From: Candidatus Moraniibacteriota bacterium
Lineage (GTDB): Bacteria > Patescibacteriota > Minisyncoccia > Moranbacterales > DUUL01
DNA: 35,609 bases
Direction of reading: 5' to 3'
NCBI GenBank assembly: GCA_012841575.1
Contig: DUUL01000011.1
Coordinates: forward strand, 1-35,609
In this document: positions 4,772-35,205 of the stretch, piece by piece
Layout: each line of letters begins with the position of its first letter
How positions within the stretch are numbered: the first letter of the stretch is position 1
Translations under genes and position numbers: made by a program
The notes under the pieces: model-generated
Database searches by the model: none
Told to the model about the DNA's origin: nothing
The model's input: only the letters and a program-made list of their open reading frames with translations

Positions 4772-5113
4772 TCATTTAAAAATTGGCAAACGCAGATTTT
4801 TCTGACTGTGCCCAGACCCACCAACTACTTTCAGCAAGAATAATACTCGCAATATGTGAAATTCACTTTTTATTCTTGCTTGGAAAATTGGCCCTGATAC
4901 AGAGCCAATGATACCACCCTCTGCTAATCTTGAGAGGGAGATGTTGTAGCGGTTAAGGAAATCTCCTTGACAAGTAGCTCCTAGCGGAACTTTTTCTGCC
5001 AAAGAGATAATTTCTTTGGTTATATTCTTAGCATCTTTTGCTAGAAGTGGGTGGGGTTGACTCGTTTGTCCCACTCTTTCCACATTAACTCTAAGGCAAT
5101 AAAAGTTTTTCAT
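4772..5113 (-). CDS. Hypothetical protein with strong Shine-Dalgarno site
   Basis: 113 residues, unrecognised. The ATG is preceded by a textbook AGGAGG 6-7 nt upstream, unusual for this window and the main reason I accept the gene. The sequence holds KEIISLAEKVPLG, a YNISLSRLAEGGIIGSV stretch and a basic C-terminus (SQKNLRLPIFK). There is no signal peptide and no clear membrane helix. It heads a two-gene unit with the small membrane protein below. The segment KEIISLAEK faintly recalls KEIISILADK in the unknown protein at 15006-15341, but similarity does not extend far. Confidence 0.6.
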   Translation of the reverse strand: MKNFYCLRVNVERVGQTSQPHPLLAKDAKNITKEIISLAEKVPLGATCQGDFLNRYNISLSRLAEGGIIGSVSGPIFQARIKSEFHILRVLFLLKVVGGSGHSQKNLRLPIFK

Positions 5114-12506: not shown

Positions 12507-13937
12507 ATGATTAAAGAATTAAATCAAAAAATTCAGTCTAGAGAGCTAAGTTGTTTGGATTTAAATAAAGAATACCTAGCAATTATTAAGGAAAAAAATG
12601 AATCACTGAGAGCTTTTTTGGAGGTTTATGAAAAAGAAGTTCTGGCACAAGCTGAGGCGGTGGATAAAAAAGTAAATCGCAAGAAAAAAATCGGCTTATT
12701 AGAAGGAATTCCCTATGGCTTAAAAGATAATGTTTGTTTGCAGGGCAAGCGAACTAGTGCTGGGTCACGGATGTTGAATAATTATCAAGCGGTTTATGAC
12801 GCTACCGTAGTCAAGAAATTGAAGGAGGCGGGGGCGATTGTGATGGGAAAAACTAATATGGACGAATTTGCAATGGGTTCTTCAACGGAGAGTTCCGTTT
12901 TTGGTCCAACTAAAAATCCTTGGGACGAAAGTCGGGTGCCGGGTGGTTCTAGTGGAGGCAGTGCGGCAGCAGTGGCAGCAGAAATGGTGCCGTGGGCGTT
13001 GGGATCGGATACAGGTGGATCAATTCGGCAACCAGCAGGTTTTTGTGGAGTGGTTGGGTTTAAGCCGACTTATGGAAGAGTGTCGCGTTATGGCTTGATT
13101 GCAATGGCTTCTAGTTATGATCAAATTGGTCCGCTTGCAAAAACTGTAGAGGATGTCGCATTGATTTATCAAGTTATTAAGGGAAAAGATGTTAAAGATA
13201 ATACTACCATTGAAAAATCAGAGGCGGATCTTGAGGACAATTTTTCCTTGAAAGGTAAAAAAATTGGAATAGTTAAGGAATTTTTTGATAGTGAAGGACT
13301 AGACAAAAAAGTGAAAACAACGGTGGAGAAAAGAATTGAATTTGCTAAAGAGCAGGGGGTGGAAATTATTGAAGTAAAACTAGACTATTTTAAGCATTCT
13401 TTAGCGGTTTATTATATAATGATGACTGCTGAGATTAGTTCTAACTTGGCACGGATGGACGGTATTCGTTTTGGTTTTAATGAGTCATTAGAAAAAGACG
13501 CAAAGGCAAAAGATATTTTGGATGTTTATAATTTTTCTCGAGAAATGGCGCTGGGACCAGAATCAAAACGACGAGTTATTTTAGGCACCTATGTTTTGAG
13601 TGCGGGCTATTACGACGCTTACTACAAAAAAGCACAAAAAATAAGAGAAATTATTAAACAAGAGGTTAAAAAAGTTTTTGAGCAGGTAGATGTTTTAATT
13701 TCCCCCACTTCACCCAAACCAGCTTTTAAATTAGGAGAAAAAATTAGTGATCCTTTGCAGCTTTACTTAGAAGATATTTATACGGTGGGAGCAAATGTGG
13801 CGATGATTCCTGGAATTTCAATCCCGGCAGGAATAGTTTCGGAAGATGGAAAAGATCTGCCAGTCGGCTTGCAACTTCTTGGTAGATGGTGGGAAGATGA
13901 AAAGCTTTTGAGTTTTGCCAAGGCGCTGGAATTATAA
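12507..13937 (+). CDS. gatA: Asp/Glu-tRNA amidotransferase subunit A
   Basis: A 476-residue amidase-signature enzyme that releases ammonia from glutamine for GatB. The Ser-cisSer-Lys triad is visible: Lys73 in YGLKDNV, Ser148 in PGGSSGGS, and the nucleophile Ser172 in SDTGGSIRQP. Length and C-terminus (LPVGLQLLGRWWEDEKLL) are normal. A 25-nt stretch inside the gene (13412-13436) occurs again, identically, at 35146-35170. Confidence 0.97.
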   Translation: MIKELNQKIQSRELSCLDLNKEYLAIIKEKNESLRAFLEVYEKEVLAQAEAVDKKVNRKKKIGLLEGIPYGLKDNVCLQGKRTSAGSRMLNNYQAVYDATVVKKLKEAGAIVMGKTNMDEFAMGSSTESSVFGPTKNPWDESRVPGGSSGGSAAAVAAEMVPWALGSDTGGSIRQPAGFCGVVGFKPTYGRVSRYGLIAMASSYDQIGPLAKTVEDVALIYQVIKGKDVKDNTTIEKSEADLEDNFSLKGKKIGIVKEFFDSEGLDKKVKTTVEKRIEFAKEQGVEIIEVKLDYFKHSLAVYYIMMTAEISSNLARMDGIRFGFNESLEKDAKAKDILDVYNFSREMALGPESKRRVILGTYVLSAGYYDAYYKKAQKIREIIKQEVKKVFEQVDVLISPTSPKPAFKLGEKISDPLQLYLEDIYTVGANVAMIPGISIPAGIVSEDGKDLPVGLQLLGRWWEDEKLLSFAKALEL

Positions 13938-25199: not shown

Positions 25200-26657
25200 A
25201 TGTCAAAGGGAAGAAAAAATAAGCGTTATTCAAAAGCTCATAAAAAGACATTGAAGGCCGATGCTTTAACTAAAGTTAAGGATAAAAATAAAGCTGAATT
25301 CGAAAAAAATAAAAAGAATAAGAGTATTCTATCAACTAAAACCGAGAAGCAGAGCAGTGAAGACAGGACGAGAGAGATTCTTGGTAAAAAAAGGGAGAAT
25401 AATGGAAGAAATGAGAGTAAAAAGAAGAGTCGTGATAGGAAAAAAAATAAAAAGTCTATCATTGAAAATAGTGCAAAAGGTTTCTTGTTGAATAATAAGC
25501 TTAAAAGGATAGCTCTAATGACGTTAGCTGTTTTAGGGTTTTTTGCGATATCCCTTTATTTTTATAAAAAAGGAGGCGAGGAGGCCAATTGGGGAAGGGG
25601 GTTAAATAAGAATATAGTTGCTGAGGCTGAAGATGAGCCAATAGAAGCAATAGATCAGTTACAAATTGACAAAAAAAGAACTAATAGAGAAGAAAGAAGA
25701 CAAAGAAGGAAAAAAGTTGAGCGTTTTAATACAGATAAGTGGTTAGTTTACAAAAATGCTCTTTATGGATTTCAATTGAAATATCCGAGTGATTGGGATA
25801 AGCCAATTAATATAAAAGGGACAAATACAGATAAGTGGGCGCAGAAGTTTGTTTTTAGAAAGAAGCAAGAGAAATTAGTTCAGGTTGATAATTCAGTTGA
25901 AAATGGATCGGATAGTCAAAAGGAAGGTTTCAACATTGTAGTCTATCCGCGTGAGTCAATTAGTGAGCTTTTTGAAACAGAAGAGCTAGCGTTAAAAGTA
26001 AGACAAAGTTTTATTGATGAATATCAACTGCAAGTGCTTAATTCAGAGGTTAGAAGTCAGAAAGATGCTTTATTTCTCCCGCAAAAAAATAAAGGAAGTC
26101 ACTGCAAGACAAATAGCTTAAGAGGGCATTTCAGAGATCTGAGTCAATTTGAAGCAGATGAAATTAGCATTCCTCTTGAGGATGAGTGTTTTGAGTCAAC
26201 ACTACTTTTTACTATTACTGGAGAGGAGTATGTTTATAATATTGTTCCGATTTTAAAGGAAGATTTAACAGTGGATGAAAATAATCTTGAGACAAAAAGT
26301 GTTTCTCAGTTAACTAAGGAGATTTTGCCGGAATTTTTTACAATTGCAAAAGAATTTGAGTTAATAGAAATTGTAATCCCTGAGCCAGTTGTTAAGCAGG
26401 AACCTAAAAACAATAAAATTGAGGCTAGAAAAAAAGCGCCAATGCCAGTTTCCTATAAAAAGGTTGATGGAAAGCTGGTTTGTGCAAAAAAGAATGATAA
26501 ACCAAGAAAGAGTAAGAAAAATAACAAGGGAAAGATTCATATGGACATGGAGTGCTGTTTAGATCCAGATGAAATTCCTAATCCGCATTGTACTTATGAA
26601 GCCAAGAGATACCAAAAGTTCTTAAAGAATCCACCCAAGAAAGACGATGATGATTAG
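25200..26657 (+). CDS. Single-pass membrane protein with basic cytosolic N-terminus, unknown function
   Basis: 485 residues. The first ~100 residues are extremely Lys/Arg/Asn-rich. One transmembrane helix follows (about 105-124, IALMTLAVLGFFAISLYFY). The exterior part has another basic stretch, then a folded domain beginning YKNALYGFQLKYPSDWDKP, a pattern like PsbP/DcrB-type domains seen in many secreted CPR proteins. Near the C-terminus is MDMECCLDPDEIPNPHCTY, a Cys-rich motif, before an acidic tail. No enzymatic motif is seen. It has its own promoter and ends where the promoter of the RNA at 26720 begins. Confidence 0.8.
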   Translation: MSKGRKNKRYSKAHKKTLKADALTKVKDKNKAEFEKNKKNKSILSTKTEKQSSEDRTREILGKKRENNGRNESKKKSRDRKKNKKSIIENSAKGFLLNNKLKRIALMTLAVLGFFAISLYFYKKGGEEANWGRGLNKNIVAEAEDEPIEAIDQLQIDKKRTNREERRQRRKKVERFNTDKWLVYKNALYGFQLKYPSDWDKPINIKGTNTDKWAQKFVFRKKQEKLVQVDNSVENGSDSQKEGFNIVVYPRESISELFETEELALKVRQSFIDEYQLQVLNSEVRSQKDALFLPQKNKGSHCKTNSLRGHFRDLSQFEADEISIPLEDECFESTLLFTITGEEYVYNIVPILKEDLTVDENNLETKSVSQLTKEILPEFFTIAKEFELIEIVIPEPVVKQEPKNNKIEARKKAPMPVSYKKVDGKLVCAKKNDKPRKSKKNNKGKIHMDMECCLDPDEIPNPHCTYEAKRYQKFLKNPPKKDDDD

Positions 26658-26684: not shown

Positions 26685-26713
26685 TTTACAACTTCTTAAA
26701 AATATGCTATAAT
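26685..26713 (+). promoter_or_regulatory. Strong extended -10 promoter of the 26720 RNA
   Basis: TTTACA (26685-26690), 17-nt spacer, TGC-TATAAT (26708-26713), giving a start near 26720. Confidence 0.8.
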
Positions 26714-26719
26714 CGAGCT

Positions 26720-26978
26720 TCTAATGTTCTTTCATTTATAAAATTTGCCCATCTTTCCCACATGGAGGTGAAAATGGAAAAATGGCGACATTAAAACATG
26801 CGCTTTTTAGCGCGCAAACCGCACCAACATTAAGGAGGTGCGGTACAAGGCGTACCGAAAGGGCGTCAGTAGGGGAAATGAAAAAAATTCAAGTGGCGGT
26901 AAGACATATGCGCTTACCAAGAAGCCATAAAAGAAGATTCTCTTCCCCTTAGCCCGGCACTTTTGCTGGGCTTTTTTT
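26720..26978 (+). ncRNA. Stand-alone structured non-coding RNA, unrecognised class
   Basis: About 260 nt between a strong promoter and a strong terminator, with no recognised protein. Helices I can pair: CCATCTTTCC (26749-26758) with GGAAAAATGG (26776-26785), one mismatch, with CAC/GTG inside; TGCGC (26799-26803) with GCGCA (26812-26816); ACCGCACC (26818-26825) with GGTGCGGT (26837-26844); 26849-26867 closing a GAAA tetraloop; AGGGGAA (26871-26877) with TTCCCCT (26943-26949), which encloses TGGC/GCCA and GGTAAG (26898-26903) with CTTACC (26913-26918). G+C is well above the neighbourhood. It lacks the conserved cores of RNase P RNA, tmRNA, SRP RNA or 5S rRNA. A 56-codon frame (26782-26952) runs through it but looks non-coding. 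Confidence 0.7.
26951..26978 (+). terminator. Rho-independent terminator of the 26720 RNA
   Basis: Stem AGCCCGGCA (26951-26959) with TGCTGGGCT (26964-26972), one G-U pair, loop CTTT, then a run of seven T. Confidence 0.9.
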
Positions 26979-27001
26979 ATTTAAAAACTAGGTGAGTGCT
27001 A

Positions 27002-27574
27002 TTAGTTTTTATTGAAAATTTTTGATTTTAAAGATGTTATAAGAGAAGGGGAATATTTAGTGATAATTTTCTTGACAATAAAGACAAAAATTATAATAAC
27101 GATTAAAACAGTAACTCTTTCTGACCAGGTTTTTATAGAGCCCAATGCACCACCAGAAAAATAGCCAATTAGCAAGTGAGATGTTGCCCACAAAAAAGCA
27201 CTAGTGACATTCCAAAGAAAAAACTCTTTTTTGTTCATCTTTGAAAGACCTGCAATAAATGGAATAATAGGACGAAGCAGACCAATGAATCTGCCCCAGA
27301 AAACACTTTTCCCGCCGTGTTTTTTGAAAAAATACTCTCCTTTTTCTAGATTAACATATTTAAGCCAACGGTAATTTTTTTGAAAAATAACCTTTCCCTT
27401 TGTGCCAAGCCAATAGCTAAATCCGTCGCCTAATATTGCGCCGAAAGTTACAAACCAAATAAGCTTACTAATTTCAAGATAGCCGTGTGCGGATAAAAAC
27501 CCTGCTAAAATTACCAAAATAGATCCCGGCAGGATTGAGCCAATAAAAGCTAAGGATTCAAGTAAAGCCACCAT
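27002..27574 (-). CDS. DedA-family membrane protein, N-terminus interrupted by in-frame amber codon
   Basis: 190 residues from ATG 27574. DedA (SNARE-associated) pattern: LLESLAFIGSILPGSILVILAGFL, GAILGDGFSYWLGTKG, FKKHGGKSVFWGRFIGLLRPIIPFIAGLSKM, and a later FLWNVTSAFLWA; four to five hydrophobic helices. Family members are polyprenyl/phospholipid scramblase-type proteins. The same frame continues upstream from ATG 27643 as MNFLELILPAYESLGSLGY, then TAG (27584-27586), then LVL and the ATG at 27574. The upstream piece fits the missing family N-terminus, so a nonsense change (TGG to TAG would suffice), a sequencing error or readthrough is likely. The annotated start may give a shortened product. 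Confidence 0.85.
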   Translation of the reverse strand: MVALLESLAFIGSILPGSILVILAGFLSAHGYLEISKLIWFVTFGAILGDGFSYWLGTKGKVIFQKNYRWLKYVNLEKGEYFFKKHGGKSVFWGRFIGLLRPIIPFIAGLSKMNKKEFFLWNVTSAFLWATSHLLIGYFSGGALGSIKTWSERVTVLIVIIIFVFIVKKIITKYSPSLITSLKSKIFNKN

Positions 27575-27836
27575 TAGAACAAGCTAATAGCCCAATGAAC
27601 CGAGGCTTTCATAGGCGGGGAGAATTAATTCTAAAAAATTCATTCTAATTAATTTACTGGGAAAAATTTTAGTTTATAAGTAAGCAAGGGAAGTATTAAG
27701 ATTAGCATTAAGATTGTTGAAAATAAGTTAAGTGGGTGAAAAATCTTAATGTGGTTTTTAAATTAATAAAAACCCGATGAGGGTGTGGTTGAGAGATTTT
27801 TTAGGAGATAAAAAGAGCACTTTGCAAAATGTTTTT

Positions 27837-27857
27837 AAAAACCCCGCACCAGGGCGG
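27837..27857 (-). terminator. Possible terminator after tRNA-Ser
   Basis: On the minus strand CCGC pairs with GCGG around CCTGGT, followed by GG and five T. The stem begins in the last bases of the tRNA. Confidence 0.45.
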
Positions 27858-27939
27858 AAGGAGTGGGATTCGAACCCACGGTATCTTGCGATACAGCAGT
27901 TTTCAAGACTGCCACCTTCAACCACTCGGTCATCCTTCC
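27855..27939 (-). tRNA. tRNA-Ser (UGA anticodon)
   Basis: An 85-nt class II tRNA. Acceptor GGAAGGA pairs with TCCTTCC, discriminator G. Anticodon loop CTTGAAA gives TGA, reading UCA serine codons. The long variable arm TATCGCAAGATA and T-loop GGTTCGAATCC are present. CCA is not encoded, so it needs CCA-adding enzyme. Confidence 0.96.
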
Positions 27940-28004
27940 GCTCTACCGCGGGGGAAATTACTTCATTCAAACAAAAAATATCTTTCCTTAACTGGAAGGT
28001 CTAG

Positions 28005-28086
28005 TGGGCGAGAGAGGACTCGAACCTCCATGAGTTGCCTCACCAGCTCCTAAGGCTGGCGTGTCTACCAATTTCACCACTCGCCC
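28005..28086 (-). tRNA. tRNA-Leu (UAG anticodon)
   Basis: An 82-nt class II tRNA. Acceptor GGGCGAG pairs with CTCGCCC, discriminator A. Anticodon loop CTTAGGA gives TAG, reading CUA leucine codons. T-loop GGTTCGAGTCC is present and CCA is not encoded. It lies 65 nt upstream of tRNA-Ser on the same strand, probably one transcript. Confidence 0.96.
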
Positions 28087-34427: not shown

Positions 34428-35153
34428 TTGGTAGGGATAATGTTTTCTAATACTATTGCTTCAGCTTCCTCAAAAATTTGTAAGGACACCAGTGGTGGTG
34501 TGTATAAAGAAAACATCATTACTCAGAGGGAATGGTACGTATCAGATACAAAGGGTGTCCCATTAGAATTATTTGAAAAGTGGGATCGTGAATTTTCTCC
34601 TAACCAAGGAGAATTCACGTGGCAAAAAGATCCTACTTTTTCAACTGTAGGACCATCTTGGGCTCCAAAATTTTTAGAGCACAAGGATGAGTCAATAGTC
34701 AGAATAGTCCAAGGGCAAGATGGCCCGGAGGTATACGTGGAGAAGAAAAAAACTGATTCACGTATAAGCTTTTATAAAACAATATTTTTTTGGGCCGTTG
34801 TGGCCTACATATTGTTTATGGGCGTTTTAAGTGGACTGATGAACAAAGAGTTTATTTTCTTTTTTCTATTAATATTATTTTGTTCAGTATTAGGTTCGTT
34901 GAGTGGTTCTCTTATGCTGACATATACTTTAATAGGTCTAACATCAATTATAATTTCCTCATTCAATAAATTACCCAATAACTGTGGAAGGCTTATTTAT
35001 AATTTTTTGGTAGGCGCATCCGCACTCTTGGGTGCCATAGTCAATATTCTATTTTTTGGTCGGGGAGACTTTACTATTGTGGCCCCGTTGTCTATTTTCC
35101 TTGTTGCGGGTTTCGCCTTGCAGCGAGCAATTTGGATCTTTAGACTTATATAA
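34428..35153 (+). CDS. Secreted/membrane protein of unknown function, signal peptide split by a T8-tract frameshift
   Basis: The open frame gives 241 residues (TTG 34428, or ATG 34440). After a hydrophobic start ending IASASS come about 90 exterior residues (REWYVSDTKGVPLELFEKWD, FSPNQGEFTWQKD) and then about four transmembrane helices. A better start lies in another frame: AAGGAGAGG (34386-34394) and GTG 34402 read VTGYGYFF, then run off at TAG. One extra T in the T8 tract (34422-34429) would join GTG to this frame and give a complete signal peptide. The gene may thus be switched off or phase-variable, or the base count may be wrong. Family unrecognised. Confidence 0.65.
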   Translation: MVGIMFSNTIASASSKICKDTSGGVYKENIITQREWYVSDTKGVPLELFEKWDREFSPNQGEFTWQKDPTFSTVGPSWAPKFLEHKDESIVRIVQGQDGPEVYVEKKKTDSRISFYKTIFFWAVVAYILFMGVLSGLMNKEFIFFFLLILFCSVLGSLSGSLMLTYTLIGLTSIIISSFNKLPNNCGRLIYNFLVGASALLGAIVNILFFGRGDFTIVAPLSIFLVAGFALQRAIWIFRLI

Positions 35154-35205
35154 TGATGACTGCTGAGATTGGGTTCGCCTTGCAGCGAGCAATTTGGATT
35201 TTTAG
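35112..35205. repeat. 62-bp-spaced direct repeat flanking a gatA-identical stretch
   Basis: 35112-35143 and 35174-35205 are identical over 32 nt except one C/T change. The segment between them contains 35146-35170, 25 nt identical to gatA 13412-13436. The second copy could encode an alternative ending FALQRAIWIFRYWRFS for the membrane protein. Confidence 0.85.

Follow-up and report, generated by a model that had tools for sequence, protein, structure and literature searches.

A candidate stand-alone small-RNA gene, probably non-coding, between two genes of a Candidatus Moraniibacteriota bacterium

Intergenic trans-acting small RNAs of bacteria have their own promoter, a structured body of 50-300 nt and an intrinsic terminator, and they are often poorly conserved between genera. 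Very little has been described of small RNAs in lineages with small genomes, most of them uncultured. We analyzed a window of 35,609 nucleotides (the whole stretch of DNA examined) from a bacterium of one such lineage, whose small genome of about 1 Mb is rated 95% complete. Between two genes of this window lies a unit on the plus strand (26685-26979) which consists of a promoter, a structured stretch of about 255 nt and a terminator. On balance we favor the reading that the unit is a stand-alone non-coding small-RNA gene of about 255 nt, probably a fast-evolving and lineage-specific regulatory RNA. The anatomy given in a preliminary description of the unit is largely right.

The sigma-70-type promoter TTTACA-N17-TATAAT (26685-26713, +) carries an extended -10 TG, as the preliminary description had it, and matches the consensus at 11 of 12 positions. 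In shuffled sequence 0.03 promoters of this quality (11/12 plus TG) are expected per strand; only two were observed in the window, and the other starts 66 bases ahead of the gene at 25200. Thus, the element at 26685-26713 is very likely a real promoter. The strong terminator described earlier is also present: AGCCCGGCACTTTTGCTGGGCT followed by a T run (26951-26979, +), with a 9-bp G+C-rich stem. From the positions of these two elements, the transcript would start about 7 nt past the -10 element and end in the T run (26720-26979, +). The label "strongly expressed" would draw its whole support from the promoter match.

The gene upstream of the unit (25200-26657, +) ends ahead of the promoter, and the gene downstream, which encodes a VTT/DedA-domain protein, is convergent on the opposite strand. 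Therefore neither flanking gene can be the coding part of the unit, and the unit is not the leader of the next gene, in agreement with the preliminary description. The mark of a stand-alone small RNA, its own promoter and an intrinsic terminator around a gene-free stretch, was found here. The G+C content of the unit is 43-45% vs. about 35% in the neighborhood, and the higher figure bears out the locally raised G+C first noticed. The upstream gene encodes a lysine-rich protein of 485 aa with one probable membrane segment and no Pfam family; its C-terminal motif H[LM]D[LM]ECCLDPDE.PNP.C.Y is kept and is common to its relatives in the order. Near the window end there is a 35-bp direct repeat (94%; 35109-35205, +), and the 25 bases between its copies (35146-35170) are identical to 13412-13436, inside a 476-aa ORF at 12507. 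This repeat is possibly an assembly artefact or a local duplication.

The unit is unusually stable in folding. The whole unit has a predicted energy of -86 kcal/mol (z -4.6), and 1 of 200 dinucleotide shuffles was equally stable. When 230-nt stretches on both strands of the window were ranked for folding, the stretch 26796-27025 (+), terminator included, came first of 618 and the stretch 26720-26949 (+), without the terminator, came sixth; the background z was taken from 10 shuffles per stretch, and the exact ranks are rough. The tRNA region 27831-28060 and the ORF at 4772-5113 also rank near the top. The latter, on the minus strand, encodes 113 aa without a Pfam family behind a strong ribosome-binding site (AAAGGAGGAAGCAATG) and contains several long inverted repeats; few stretches of the window fold as strongly as its mRNA (z -6.3 for 4831-5060 minus, -3.8 for the whole). 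The minus strand of the unit also folds well (z -3.8), as inverted repeats would give, so that the fold does not fix the strand of the unit; the promoter and terminator do.

The structure was predicted from one sequence with an energy model. A long-range helix between ATGTTCTTTC (26724-26733) and GAAAGGGCGT (26857-26866) is predicted to close the 5' domain (26724-26866, +) with a pairing probability of about 0.8. Within this domain lie the 5' hairpin (26745-26788, +; about 0.7-0.8), a hairpin GCGCT-TTTT-AGCGC (26800-26813, +; about 0.7-0.8) and a hairpin ACCGCACC/GGTGCGGT (26818-26844, +). This last hairpin is backed by the base-pair probabilities, and its loop and 3' stem carry TTAAGGAGGTG (26830-26840). 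The 3' arm (26871-26949, +) has an AGGGGAA/TTCCCCT closing stem around GTGGC/GCCAT (26893-26928) and GGTAAG/CTTACC (26898-26918), with an AAGAA bulge. The base-pair probabilities are 0.83-0.99 for the closing stem and 0.92-1.0 for the two parts of the enclosed arm, and this element of the preliminary description is well reproduced.

Two other elements of that description fared less well. The helix with a GAAA tetraloop (26849-26867) appears as a minor conformer, about 18% of the ensemble; the partner favored for its 3' strand is 26724-26733. The long-range helix and the tetraloop hairpin are mutually exclusive; the pair could be a switch or could reflect mere uncertainty of the energy model. 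It was also claimed that a hairpin loop holds both a GGAGGTG and an AUG. The loop of the 5' hairpin, AUGGAG, does include the start of the first Shine-Dalgarno-like motif GGAGGTG (26764-26770), with GGAG unpaired at 0.8-0.95; the GUG is paired, and the AUG in question is not in the loop but 3' of it within the hairpin.

We searched for relatives of the unit at several levels. In Rfam 15, no family reached its gathering score within the unit and nothing credible was seen up to E 10; the best score was 22.8 bits vs. a threshold of 99, and the only Rfam matches of the window are tRNAs. The proposal that the unit has no known RNA core (RNase P RNA, SRP RNA, riboswitches and the like) agrees with this search. 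The unit is single-copy in its genome by blastn. Among 57 relatives and 384 class genomes, blastn gave only short, chance-like matches of about 14-37 nt, and nine of the best, when inspected, looked unrelated. A covariance model of the unit, a weak probe when built from a single sequence and so of limited force in its negative results, found only its own sequence in 124 order genomes and two outside matches of 15.9 bits in 286 class genomes, both of which looked unrelated on inspection. With looser filters it gave one match (E 0.97) in the 36 nearest relatives. All its outside matches were weak (10.9 to 15.9 bits).

The genomes searched belong to other genera of the family, to the order and to a sample of the class, with no same-genus genome among them; scanning of the GTDB collection with the upstream-gene protein and ribosomal protein S15 gave no close relative. 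The inspected relatives of the upstream gene have no counterpart of the unit downstream, and the covariance model finds none in those loci. Phages, plasmids and viral contigs, also by pattern search, gave no credible match, and nothing in the literature bears directly on the unit. Such an RNA may be confined to the genus or narrower, or may evolve too fast for the searches used. Since the searches turned up no second member, the structural evidence comes from folding of the single sequence. A new class would comprise several independent members with covarying pairs; blastn and the covariance model gave one copy in several hundred related genomes. Of the proposed "stand-alone structured RNA of an unrecognised class", the self-contained, non-Rfam and non-coding-looking RNA stands, and the word class does not.

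The main rival, which we regard as unlikely, is that the unit is a short-peptide mRNA or a dual-function RNA, encoding MEKWRH or a 56- or 24-codon frame, whose hairpins control ribosome-binding sites. The six-codon ORF MEKWRH* (26774-26794, +) has GGAGG five bases ahead of its ATG, and this good ribosome-binding site and ATG suggest that at least a short peptide may be translated; MEKWRH could be a leader peptide. The promoter and terminator would also serve an mRNA, and the ribosome-binding motifs are partly paired. However, six codons are insufficient to judge, and the second, strongest Shine-Dalgarno motif has no start codon. The longest ORF (56 codons; 26782-26952, +) was judged not coding. 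Its codon log-odds of -0.019 per codon is under the minimum of 0.012 among 123 real segments of that length in the window (median 0.361). This frame matched no protein family; searches of the order and of plasmids gave it no credible relative, nor did a search of phages with its 24-codon end. These non-coding statistics support a unit that does not look protein-coding.

A less probable explanation is that the unit is a decayed leader or attenuator, formerly the 5' leader of a gene since lost or inverted. Such a leader would run from a promoter to a terminator and hold a strong ribosome-binding site, a short ORF (here one with W, R and H codons) and two helices that exclude each other, all of which the unit has. 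The relatives of the upstream gene carry different downstream neighbors. However, the downstream gene is convergent, no known leader family was matched, and the promoter and helices show no visible decay.

If the unit is a small-RNA gene as we favor, its Shine-Dalgarno-like motifs point to a possible role. Two GGAGGTG motifs fall in an 80-nt span inside the unit, vs. two in all the rest of the window, 71 kb counting both strands; the Poisson P of this clustering is 2.7e-5, for a motif picked after the sequence was seen. The second motif sits in TAAGGAGGTG, a 10-nt Shine-Dalgarno sequence when judged by the canonical 16S end rather than by this genome's own; it is half in a loop and has no start codon at usable spacing. 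The motifs suggest that the RNA contacts ribosomes or pyrimidine-rich RNA. The RNA might pair in trans via its exposed purine-rich loops, GGAG (26764-26767) and UUAAGGA (26830-26836), which are complementary to pyrimidine-rich RNA, in principle including the 3' end of 16S rRNA. We hold such trans pairing, with its putative partner, to be the likeliest mechanism, if still a doubtful one. Target prediction against 32 start regions of the window gave a best z of -2.6 in 192 tests, which is chance-level. It is quite improbable, in our estimate, that the unit is a ribosome-docking RNA, lineage-specific in a small-genome bacterium, whose hairpin-borne Shine-Dalgarno sequence without a start codon would occupy the anti-Shine-Dalgarno of 16S rRNA and tune translation.

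Two further explanations are very improbable, to an equal degree. One sees in the unit what is left of a guide RNA from an IS200/IS605-type (TnpB) element, or the RNA of some other mobile element. The 3' arm with AAGAAGCC is reminiscent of the right ends of such elements, and the frame 26809-26925 is open. This frame has no family match, the unit is single-copy, and neither phages and plasmids nor the pattern search of viral contigs gave a match. The TnpB zinc-ribbon family is unmatched in the window's genome and above cut-off in 1 of 131 order genomes; TnpB was thus not found here and is all but absent from the order. The explanation is mostly refuted. The other is a diverged housekeeping RNA (SRP RNA or 6S RNA). 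The small SRP RNA family (RF00169) has no match in this 95%-complete genome; the SRP RNA may be lacking or of another type, may lie on an unassembled contig, or may have diverged. However, RNase P RNA was found elsewhere in the genome, no SRP or 6S match was seen in the unit up to E 10, and a housekeeping RNA should be recognizable in sister genera, where the covariance model finds none. A CRISPR-linked RNA was rejected, as the window has no repeat array.

We infer that the unit is transcribed, folds as modeled and regulates. Its present value is that of a candidate, one sequence without relatives; if expressed and kept within the genus, it would offer a practical way into the study of RNA regulation there. 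Compared with known systems, the unit is like the CsrB/RsmY-type sponge RNAs in its GGA motifs in hairpin loops. Unlike them, it has only two clear loop GGA motifs, and no CsrA was detected in its genome, which leaves a CsrB-like sponge unsupported. Leader-peptide attenuators likewise combine a promoter and a terminator with a ribosome-binding site, a short ORF and helices that exclude each other; unlike them, the unit has no same-strand downstream gene. It differs from the intergenic trans-acting small RNAs in that it matches no family and that any target or chaperone would be hypothetical, and it is like them, as a kind and not as any single family, in its own promoter, structured body and intrinsic terminator.
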